Of a stretch of 64,000 bases of DNA, positions 16,259-25,009 are shown in pieces. The DNA comes from Azospirillum lipoferum 4B (GTDB lineage: Bacteria > Pseudomonadota > Alphaproteobacteria > Azospirillales > Azospirillaceae), in assembly GCF_000283655.1 (NCBI RefSeq), contig NC_016622.1:756501-820500 (forward strand), given 5' to 3'. Both the position numbers and the translations under genes were made by a program. Within the stretch, counting starts at the first letter, position 1. The number at the start of each line of letters is the position of its first letter. The notes below the pieces were generated by a model that saw nothing but the letters and a program-made list of their open reading frames with translations, was not told the DNA's origin and ran no database searches.

Positions 16259-17011
16259 ATGGCCGGTCATTCCCAGTTCAAGAACATCATGCACCGCAAG
16301 GGCGCGCAGGACGCCAAGCGGTCCAAGATCTTCAACAAGCTCGCCCGCGAGATCACCGTCGCCGCCAAGAGCGGCCTGCCGGACCCGGCGGCCAACCCGC
16401 GCCTGCGCGCCGCCATTCTCGCTGCGCGCGTGCAGAACATGCCGCGCGACCGCATCGACCGCGCCATCAAGCAGGGCACGCCCGGCGGCGGCGACGACGC
16501 GAATTACGAGGAGGTGCGGTACGAGGGCTACGGCCCCGGCGGCGTCGCCCTGATCGTCGAGGCGCTGACCGACAACCGCAACCGCACCGCCGCGGAAGTG
16601 CGCTCCAGCTTCACCAAGTATGGCGGCAGCCTGGGCGAGACCAACTCGGTCAGCTTCATGTTCAACCGCGTCGGCGCGATCTATTACCCGGCCTCGGCCG
16701 CGGATGCCGACACCGTGTTCGAGGTGGCGCTGGAAGCCGGCGCCGACAACGTCGAATCCGACGAGAACGGCCATGAGGTGACCAGCACGGTCGAGAATTT
16801 CGGCGCCGTGCGCGATGCGCTGGAGGCCAAGTTCGGCGGGGCGGAGAGCGCGCGGCTGACCTGGCGTCCGCTGAACACCGTCGCGCCCAGCGAGGATGCC
16901 GCGGCCAGCCTGCTGAAGCTGCTGGACGTGCTGGAGGACAACGACGACGTCCAGGTGGTCGAAGGCAACTTCGACATCTCCGACGAGCTGATGCAGAAGC
17001 TGACTGCGTAA
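16259..17011 (+). CDS. YebC/PmpR family regulatory protein
   Basis: A 250-residue YebC family protein. The family start [23 protein letters not shown] is exact, followed by [11 protein letters not shown] and the acidic middle and C-terminal domains. Members were described as DNA-binding regulators (PmpR) and more recently as factors that help ribosomes through difficult proline-containing stretches. The gene sits directly upstream of ruvC, as in most proteobacteria, and ruvC follows after about 70 bases. Confidence 0.95.
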
Positions 17012-17080: not shown

Positions 17081-18136
17081 GTGCCTTCGCCGGTGCGGCT
17101 GCTGGGGATCGACCCCGGCCTGCGCCACACCGGCTGGGGCATCATCGACGTGGCGGGTAACCGTCTGAGCCACGTCGCCGACGGCGCGGTGCATTCCGAC
17201 GACTCCTGTCCGCTGGCCGAGCGGCTGCTGCAGCTTCACGACGCCCTGTCGGCGGTGGTGGAGCGCTACCGTCCCGACGAGGCGGCGGTGGAGGAGACCT
17301 TCGTCAACAGCAACGCCGTCTCGACGCTGAAGCTGGGGCAGGCCCGCGCCGTGGCGCTGCTGGTGCCGGCCCAGGCCGGGCTGGCGGTGGCGGAATACGC
17401 CAACAACATGGTCAAGAAGGCGGTCGTCGGCCAAGGCCGCGCCGAAAAGGCGCAGGTCCAGACCATGGTGCGCCTGCTGCTGCCCGGCTGCGAGATCGGC
17501 AGCCCCGACGCCGCCGACGCGCTCGCCGTGGCGATCTGCCATGCGCACCACCGCGCAAGCTGGACGATGTGGCGGCGGGGTGGTGAAGCGTCCCAACCGG
17601 CGCAAAGCGCCCTCTCCCGTCCCGGGAGAGGGAGGGGACCCGCCGCAGGCGGGGAGGGTGAGGGGCTATCCACCCCGCCACTCGCCAAACAAGCCAAACG
17701 CCTCCCGACCCCCGAAGAAACCGAACGCGCCCACGTGCTTCGCCGCGATTCCACCGAGGTGGAAAAAATGCTGTGGCAGAAGCTGCGGAACGGCCAGCTG
17801 GGGGCGAAATTCCGTCGTCAGGAACCAATATTCGGCTTTACCGTCGACTTCGTTTCACACGATCACCGGCTGATCATCGAACTGGATGGCGGCCAGCATG
17901 CAGAGCAGCGCGCCGCCCATGATGAACGACGCTCCAGGATGCTGGAGCAGGCCGGTTTTCGCATCATGCGGTTCTGGAATACGGATGTTGGCGACAACCT
18001 CGACGGTGTCCTGACGACTATCAAGGCGCGCTTGGACGAAACTTCCGTCCTGCGGCGGCCGGTCGCCGCGGCGAACCCCTCACCCGGCCCTGCGGGCCAC
18101 CCTCTCCCGGGGCGGGAGAGGGACTCGGAGTCCTGA
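17081..18136 (+). CDS. ruvC: RuvC Holliday-junction resolvase fused to a DUF559 nuclease domain
   Basis: One uninterrupted frame of 351 codons, twice the normal RuvC length. Residues 1-160 are Ruv[13 protein letters not shown] with Asp11, VEETFVNSN with Glu71, and [16 protein letters not shown] with Asp143 and Asp146 give the full catalytic tetrad. Residues 175-205 are translated from a GC-rich palindrome and are low complexity. From about 215 a complete DUF559 domain follows ([29 protein letters not shown] with Asp256, [10 protein letters not shown] with Glu267 and Asp269, RFWNTDV). The tail is translated from a second palindrome. RuvC usually ends near residue 173. GTG 17081 has GAGG 5 bases ahead; GTG 17048 is an alternative. 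A GTG at 17735 could start the DUF559 part separately. ruvA begins 3 bases after the stop. Confidence 0.9.
17610..17665. repeat. Class B palindrome, left end of DUF559 cassette
   Basis: A 56-base GC-rich element within the ruvC frame: perfect hairpin CCCTCTCCCG-TC-CCGGGAGAGGG type, then a second small dyad and GGTGAGGGG. It is the inverted counterpart of 18076-18122. Confidence 0.8.
18076..18122. repeat. Class B palindrome, right end of DUF559 cassette
   Basis: A 47-base element near the end of the fused ruvC frame, 17 bases before the ruvA start. It reads as the reverse complement of the left element with a shorter spacer. It could form a hairpin in the mRNA just ahead of the ruvA ribosome-binding region. 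Confidence 0.8.
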
Positions 18137-18139
18137 ACC

Positions 18140-18766
18140 ATGATCGCCAAGCTGACCGGCATCGTCGATTCCACCGGCACCGACTGGGTCGTGCTCGACG
18201 TGAACGGAGTCGGTTACCTGCTGTCCTGCTCCAACCGCACGCTGTCGCGCATGGCGGTGGGCGAGCGCGTGTCGTTGGTGGTGGAGACCTTCATCCGCGA
18301 GGAGCGCATCGTCCTGCACGGCTTCGGCGATCAGGCGGAACGGGAGTGGTTCAAGCTGCTGACCACCATCCAGGGCGTCGGTGCCCGGCTGGCGCTGTCG
18401 ATCCTCGGCGTGCTCGACCCCGACCAGCTGACGCGCGCCATCGCGTCGCAGGACAAGACCGCGCTGGTGCGCGCCGACGGCGTCGGGCCGAAGGTGGCGG
18501 CGCGCATCCTGAACGAACTCAAGGACAAGGTCGGCAATCTGGCGCTCGGCCCCGCGGCGACCGTGGGCGCGCCGGCCGGCAAGGGCGCCCCCGCCGCCGT
18601 GCCCGGCGCCAGCCCGGCGCTGGCCGACGCGGTGTCGGCGCTGGTCAATCTCGGCTATGGCCGGTCGGAGGCCTTCGGCGCGGTCGTCGCCGCCGGGCGC
18701 GTGCTGGGCGATGACGCCGGCGTGTCCGATCTGATCCGCCAGGGCCTCAAGGAACTGAGCCAATGA
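18140..18766 (+). CDS. ruvA: Holliday junction branch-migration protein RuvA
   Basis: A 208-residue RuvA. The N-terminal OB fold ([28 protein letters not shown]), the tandem helix-hairpin-helix region ([17 protein letters not shown] and [17 protein letters not shown]) and the C-terminal RuvB-binding domain ([16 protein letters not shown]) are all present. An Ala/Pro/Gly-rich flexible linker precedes domain III. RuvA tetramers clamp the Holliday junction and recruit RuvB. The last four bases overlap the ruvB start (ATGA). Confidence 0.97.
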
Positions 18767-24896: not shown

Positions 24897-25009
24897 CCCT
24901 TCTCCCCTTGCGGGAGAAGGGTTGGGATGAGGGGTAAGAGGCCAAAGGCCGATGGAACCATCGACTTGCGCCCCCTCACCCCCACCCCTCTCCCACAAGG
25001 GGAGAGGGG
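24897..25009. repeat. Class B palindromic pair
   Basis: Two G/C-rich hairpins in inverted orientation, about 50 bases apart: CCCTTCTCCC/GGGAGAAGGG at 24897-24921 followed by GGGATGAGGGG, then CCCCCTCACC with CCCCTCTCCC/GGGGAGAGGGG ending at 25009. The layout is like the two ends of the DUF559 cassette in ruvC but with no coding sequence between them. Confidence 0.75.

Follow-up and report, generated by a model that had tools for sequence, protein, structure and literature searches.

The locus considered here raises a simple question: why does the only gene for the Holliday junction resolvase RuvC in Azospirillum lipoferum 4B run on, without a stop, into a nuclease domain of the DUF559 family? 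The gene lies in a stretch of 64,000 nucleotides (the window; contig NC_016622.1, positions 756,501 to 820,500, forward strand). Rather than a one-off fusion, the arrangement appears to be an instance of a mobile element not yet described, because similar nuclease units sit in frame within unrelated genes of other bacteria. We consider it probable that a DUF559 gene bracketed by palindromes of the triplex motif (TM) type, a TM-DUF559-TM element, was inserted in frame at the 3' end of ruvC and spread in a homing-like manner.

The in-frame joining of RuvC to a Vsr-like nuclease within ruvCAB, as proposed in a first-pass annotation of the window, is real: both Pfam domains, the RuvC catalytic tetrad and the VDFV and IELDGGQH motifs of DUF559 are all found in one frame, with the following features.

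17081..18136, + strand: fused ruvC-DUF559 open reading frame, 351 amino acids, one open frame with a GTG start at 17081
17102..17542, + strand: RuvC domain, residues 8-154, with the tetrad D11, E71, D143, D146 (PF02075, E 2.1e-44)
17610..17664, + strand: 5' palindrome (TM), CCCTCTCCC at 17610, GGGAGAGGG at 17624 and GGGTGAGGG at 17656, translated within the linker
17717..18034, + strand: DUF559 domain, residues 213-318, with conserved E228, D256, E267, D269, H273 and D281
18077..18122, + strand: 3' palindrome (TM), a mirror image of the 5' palindrome, CCCTCACCC at 18077, CCCTCTCCC at 18100 and GGGAGAGGG at 18114, translated as the protein tail
17610..18122, + strand: complete TM-DUF559-TM unit, 3'-terminal in ruvC

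The RuvC part matches 1hjr by sequence and scores 145.1 bits against TIGR00228 (above the cut-off of 100.65) and 146.3 against NF000711 (below the cut-off of 163), while the DUF559 part reaches 118.4 bits against PF04480, with a gathering score of 20.6 (E 1.6e-34, Pfam). The best matches of this DUF559 domain to named species or strains are from A. picis and Azospirillum sp. 412522. An alternative in-frame start, GTG 17048, would give a product of 362 residues. The internal GTG at 17735, which had been put forward as a start for the nuclease alone, is a poor one, because it encodes residue 219, and the Pfam match to DUF559 begins six residues before it. As this is the sole RuvC of the genome, the sequence suggests that the fused protein would retain Holliday junction resolution. 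The view that no RuvC-DUF559 protein had been described is upheld by the full-text literature searched, in which no paper holds "DUF559" and "RuvC" together.

The segment between the two domains, previously called low-complexity, is in fact a translated palindromic repeat. Over 17610-18122 the arms read T+ T- A- [DUF559] A+ T+ T-, and the window's palindromes follow the TM pattern CCCTCTCCC-loop-GGGAGAGGG-GGGTGAGGG, the 5' copy having 23 nucleotides between the second and third arm. The motif CCCTCWCCC has 19 matches in the window against 2.0 expected, the largest count among 100 shuffles being 5. Both palindromes of the window, as well as a consensus-like one, are stop-free in five of the six frames, whereas an E. 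coli copy is so in three. The TM, or intrastrand triplex motif (TMECO), formerly called BoxC or PIT, was described as an intergenic repeat reported to form a triplex, and that account states that transposase or integrase remnants were never found around the E. coli sites (PMC4666352). The same source places TMECO number 9 (1351204-1351239) between fabI and ycjD, the latter a DUF559 gene (PMC4666352). The palindromes of the window share the pattern of these TMs (Holder 2015), but here they are translated and paired with a nuclease gene; those of Enterobacter sp. 638, with CCCTCTCCC..GGGAGAGGG (PMC2869309), also resemble them. In the open-access literature, covered largely at the level of titles and passages, we found nothing linking DUF559 to TM palindromes.

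Such units recur in frame in hosts that have nothing to do with RuvC: IleRS, ValRS, Mfd, HsdM, hydantoinase B and YkuD. In the IleRS of a Rickettsiales metagenome-assembled genome, the tRNA-synt_1 match spans residues 42-820 (profile 3-407) with DUF559 at 311-415 inside it. Rickettsiales bacterium AM-377-L16 has two DUF559 copies, both lying in frame, one within valS (synthetase match 27-650, DUF559 241-346; L086 2284-5493) and one within mfd (DUF559 460-565, between UvrB_inter and the D3 domain; L070 1618-5997). In the hydantoinase B of a betaproteobacterial metagenome-assembled genome DUF559 occupies 573-681 and the host resumes at 715 (profile 111); HsdM carries the domain in genome G484, and in the YkuD protein (L223), where the host family is matched over two stretches (9-97 being the best), DUF559 occupies 108-214. 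The ileS, valS and mfd frames exceed their NCBIfam cut-offs, and hsdM falls below its own. Alignment to solved structures shows the host continuing past the insert in HsdM (query 477 and 637 aligning with chain positions 496 and 505 of 3khk), IleRS (286 and 468 with 248 and 277 of 9w01) and Mfd (298 and 696 with 286 and 385 of 2eyq). Exact palindrome arms occur in five of the six hosts, on both sides in Mfd, HsdM, YkuD and, with a single arm per side, ValRS. Fusions at the N-terminus, whose starts are less certain, were found with AroA, MurB, a class II tRNA-synthetase-like protein and CbiG. A methyltransferase, L128, was not counted as a mid-gene case, the search of solved structures not having shown its host beyond the insert. 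Separately, tandem palindrome halves stand beside DUF559 in Methylococcus and Methylomicrobium (L128 199-4887 and L085), in frame in L128.

Presence and absence can be followed at another Azospirillum site, where the DUF559 unit L191 of genome G022 carries both palindromes. Among the 45 Azospirillum genomes sampled, a match spanning the unit was found in G022 and G002 only; elsewhere the matches listed stop at or outside the unit's edges, some after several hundred bases, and no palindrome 9-mer was found at the site in seven relatives (G007, G014, G064, G070, G020, G035 and G009). In G007, with a left flank 95% identical, a shorter unrelated sequence takes its place.

At ruvC itself the first-pass annotation had left it to further searches whether the fusion was fixed in a clade or unique, and it is neither: the in-frame arrangement is present in 38 of the 45 genomes (L001-L028, L030-L033, L048-L052, L134), with linkers of 37-135 residues measured from the end of the RuvC core, and a minority are unfused. 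Because the same arrangement recurs in so many genomes, chance or sequencing error does not account for it. An early end of ruvC, a separate DUF559 gene or a frameshift, named there as signs against a genuine fusion, are confined to that minority: ruvC stands alone beside ruvA in three genomes (G033, G034, G011), the two genes are adjacent in different frames in A. cavernae (G065), and a linker frameshift in G021 leaves DUF559 in place and out of frame. PF02075 has one match in 44 of the 45 genomes and none in G067. In a tree of ruvC and ruvA, G033 groups with a fused relative (support 100), so its unfused state looks like a loss; at the end of its ruvC a palindrome-like remnant precedes final bases identical to those of fused relatives, which would fit a unit that lost its middle, or a solo palindrome. 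G034 and G011 fall near the base beside the fused L023, with branching unresolved. In genome G008 (C1:4588900-4601900, L045) an assembly gap interrupts the ruvC linker, and DUF559 lies some 8.6 kb off on the other strand, possibly through inversion or misassembly.

Beyond Azospirillum, in 37 genomes from the family's 12 other genera, the matches listed at cut-off 1e-45 end with RuvC, and no fusion was found in any of the 18 loci examined from these genera (L135-L152). A survey of the class (385 genomes drawn, cut-off 1e-58, 89 with a match) yielded one further fusion, in G051 (L038), and one tandem arrangement with stops between the genes, in G047 (L039). DUF559 thus stands at the ruvC-ruvA junction in three lineages, which might reflect a preference for this site or a single old lineage. 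The trees do not establish three separate insertions: the DUF559 copies of Azospirillum ruvC group together (SH-aLRT 91), those of G051 and G047 are not resolved, and a tree holding all ruvC copies together even scored above a quick free search (p-AU 0.61); chance placement is also possible.

Among 39 fused genes (the 38 and the window's), the median pairwise ratio of nonsynonymous to synonymous substitution (dN/dS) is 0.12 for DUF559, with 12 of 737 pairs saturated, against 0.17 for RuvC. E228, D256, E267, D269 and D281 are kept in all 39 and H273 in 38, and the six positions are invariant in 62 diverse DUF559 sequences. The fused copy of G004 (L012), whose linker is unlike the palindromes, has lost the conserved DUF559 histidine and is perhaps a decaying module. 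DUF559 types cut across the ruvC/ruvA tree, and the approximately unbiased (AU) test speaks against the window-type and oryzae-type forming a clade (p 0.026); the five types cover 31 of the 39 genes, 8 being left out, and were named after the trees and alignments had been viewed. DUF559 differs at synonymous sites by 0.58-0.66 between types and by 0.20-0.40 within types, against between-type values of 0.14-0.17 for ruvC and 0.08-0.14 for ruvA. Three pairs show a drop in identity (per 60 bases) from 87-100% to 18-88% between about ruvC codon 160 and the start of ruvA, and a rise thereafter. The DUF559 module at ruvC is hence swapped as a block between strains; homing may be one cause of this and ordinary recombination another.

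In the mechanism that we propose, the ancestor of Azospirillum, or a bacterium close to it, would have acquired near the 3' end of its ruvC an in-frame gene for a Vsr-like or EDxHD-like endonuclease between inverted, stop-poor palindromes. The linker would derive from the 5' palindrome and, in the window's allele, the tail from the 3' palindrome, leaving RuvC at work with the nuclease as a tethered passenger, both presumably expressed as one chain. The nuclease would cut ruvC alleles that are without its module or differ from it, and donor-templated repair would copy the module across, as in homing. Invasion in frame without splicing is conceivable because the palindromic ends are mostly stop-free and serve as ready linkers.

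The alternative closest to the first-pass annotation, which saw a two-nuclease enzyme, is that DUF559 was recruited for the host's benefit as a second repair activity, in very-short-patch-like repair or junction trimming, and is delivered by RuvC. We regard this as unlikely, if the best of the alternatives. The presence of the fusion on the sole RuvC in 38 of 45 genomes, the low DUF559 dN/dS (0.12) with conserved residues in 38 of 39 genes, the maintenance of frame across linkers of 37-135 residues and the second fusion in G051 are all in its favour, as is the report that Caulobacter cells lacking the methyltransferase ScmA need the DUF559 protein VsrA to mount an SOS response (PMC12907096). 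Yet such a role does not fit IleRS, ValRS, HsdM and the other hosts in which DUF559 lies in frame, ruvC stands alone in three of the 45 genomes, and the module is exchanged as a block. The frame of the supposed enzyme is real, but its linker and tail, whose nature that annotation missed, are palindromes of the DUF559 unit; because of this, and because units recur in unrelated genes, we prefer an inserted element to a two-nuclease enzyme made to act on junctions. DUF559 could still be either a passenger or a partner of RuvC.

The association of nuclease and palindrome extends well beyond these cases. At 65 DUF559 loci outside Azospirillum, from several phyla (L068-L132), one of four palindrome 9-mers lies within 200 bp in 36 (upstream in 27, downstream in 34, on both sides in 25), against 1 and 2 in control windows 1.5 kb away from the same loci. 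Shuffled 9-mers of the same composition hit a mean of 10.1 and at most 31 loci, and base composition may therefore explain part of the association; it is unlikely to be the whole cause, because among 30 best-scoring loci from a 200-genome draw of the phylum a palindrome occurs within 300 bp at 18 for DUF559 and at 0 of 30 each for Vsr and UPF0102. A palindrome also accompanies 12 of 20 additional DUF559 loci in Azospirillum. Motifs flank 44 of 115 loci on both sides at distances of up to 150 bp, with an inward-symmetric order in 34 (binomial 1e-22 versus 2 of 16 orders). Among the 200 genomes, at least five palindromes are held by 24 of the 47 with clear DUF559 (E < 1e-10, a threshold chosen here) and by 9 of the 153 others (Fisher 2.8e-11, uncorrected for kinship); counted by family the figures are 16 of 22 versus 3 of 35, and a Mantel-Haenszel comparison within families gives an odds ratio of 15 (z 3.0). 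Genomes G581, G601 and G506, the first two incomplete, hold 57-107 palindromes and no clear DUF559. Four loci (L081, L090, L091, L110) show a nucleotidyltransferase, an HsdS-like (Methylase_S) domain and DUF559 in one frame of 745-790 residues, with no exact palindromes.

This genome-level co-occurrence would also be expected if DUF559 moved nothing and acted as a caretaker nuclease for triplex- or hairpin-prone palindromes, with genes near them favoured by selection, and TM sites have been tied to instability (PMC4666352). We think this improbable, for it leaves unexplained the inverted, bracketing arrangement and the in-frame copies in essential genes. That RuvC tolerates a useless extension is very improbable: linker and tail lengths vary freely and L012 lacks the conserved histidine, but the DUF559 codons are under purifying selection (0.12 versus 0.17 for ruvC). 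An assembly or annotation artefact, to which the G021 frameshift and G008 gap might point, is refuted by the in-frame arrangement in 38 genomes plus the window, and was rejected along with the free internal start inside the DUF559 match.

The nuclease itself has informative relatives. A model of DUF559 built by AlphaFold from 62 rows (predicted local distance difference test score, pLDDT, 85.7) appears to resemble the homing endonuclease I-Bth0305I and Vsr; a model of the fusion in full, from 14 close rows, reached a pLDDT of 44 and was set aside as poor. In a Foldseek search, mitoribosomal and FASTK-like chains share the DUF559 fold. The fused DUF559 falls short of the TIGR00632 vsr cut-off, and differs from Vsr and the EDxHD endonucleases in having no intron or intein around it, in being translated within a host protein and in being bracketed by inverted palindromes. 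Like inteins, the units invade conserved genes in frame and include an endonuclease, but unlike them they have no splicing domain in Pfam scans of the window's frame and the six host frames. REP/RAYT systems likewise combine a nuclease gene with flanking palindromes and many scattered ones. They differ in that RAYTs are HUH enzymes (PMC6006769), whereas DUF559 has a Vsr-like fold and a Pfam search of the fused frame found no HUH domain. Phage or defence cargo was considered and set aside, PADLOC matches being weak and DUF559 relatives occurring at 12 viral-collection loci only, with two peptide patterns. To our knowledge, the Rickettsia palindromic elements have no nuclease domain, and their sequence is unlike TM. 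These elements too are palindromic DNA in frame within protein genes, about 150 bp each (PMC10969869).

Several points weigh against the inserted element. The 3' palindrome is absent from many Azospirillum ruvC alleles; no exact palindrome 9-mer lies within 200-300 bp of 29 of the 65, 12 of the 30 and 8 of the 20 other Azospirillum loci; exact palindromes are missing from 11 of the 47 DUF559 genomes and present in 23 of the 153 without clear DUF559, in one case in 107 copies. In hydantoinase B the exact palindrome is on the 3' side only, the IleRS case has none, its flanks being palindrome-like by eye only, and metagenome assemblies are the source of several mid-gene cases. At the L191 site a target duplication could not be defined, fusions elsewhere may have been missed at the E 1e-58 of the class survey, ordinary homologous recombination at a diversified locus might account for the exchange at ruvC, and neither transposition nor homing was seen. 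Weighing these against its architecture, insertion pattern and polymorphism, on which the mobile-element reading rests, we are fairly confident that TM-DUF559-TM is an element, and put forward homing as the means of its spread more tentatively.

Two further palindromes and the genes next to ruvC complete the picture of the window. Like palindromes lie at 2547-2602, between a frame that we take to be EpmA-like and, on the opposite strand, a presumed outer-membrane-like gene, and at 24973-25008, between presumed Pal-like and CpoB/YbgF-like genes. The neighbours of the fused gene are as follows.

16259..17011, + strand: open frame upstream of ruvC, which we take to be a YebC-like gene
18140..18766, + strand: ruvA, starting 3 nucleotides past the fused stop codon

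TM/BoxC palindromes are found in more than 260 genomes, and the palindrome-bracketed DUF559 gene offers a concrete and testable candidate for their spread. A nuclease gene of this kind can sit inside essential genes without splicing, and the RuvC fusion would be explained as one such case. In its broadest form the proposal seems to us evenly balanced between true and false: TM-DUF559-TM may represent a class of mobile elements not described before, which occurs in several phyla of bacteria and from whose nuclease-bearing form the TM/BoxC palindromes derive, and which in Azospirillum would have become an allele-swapping part of the sole RuvC.
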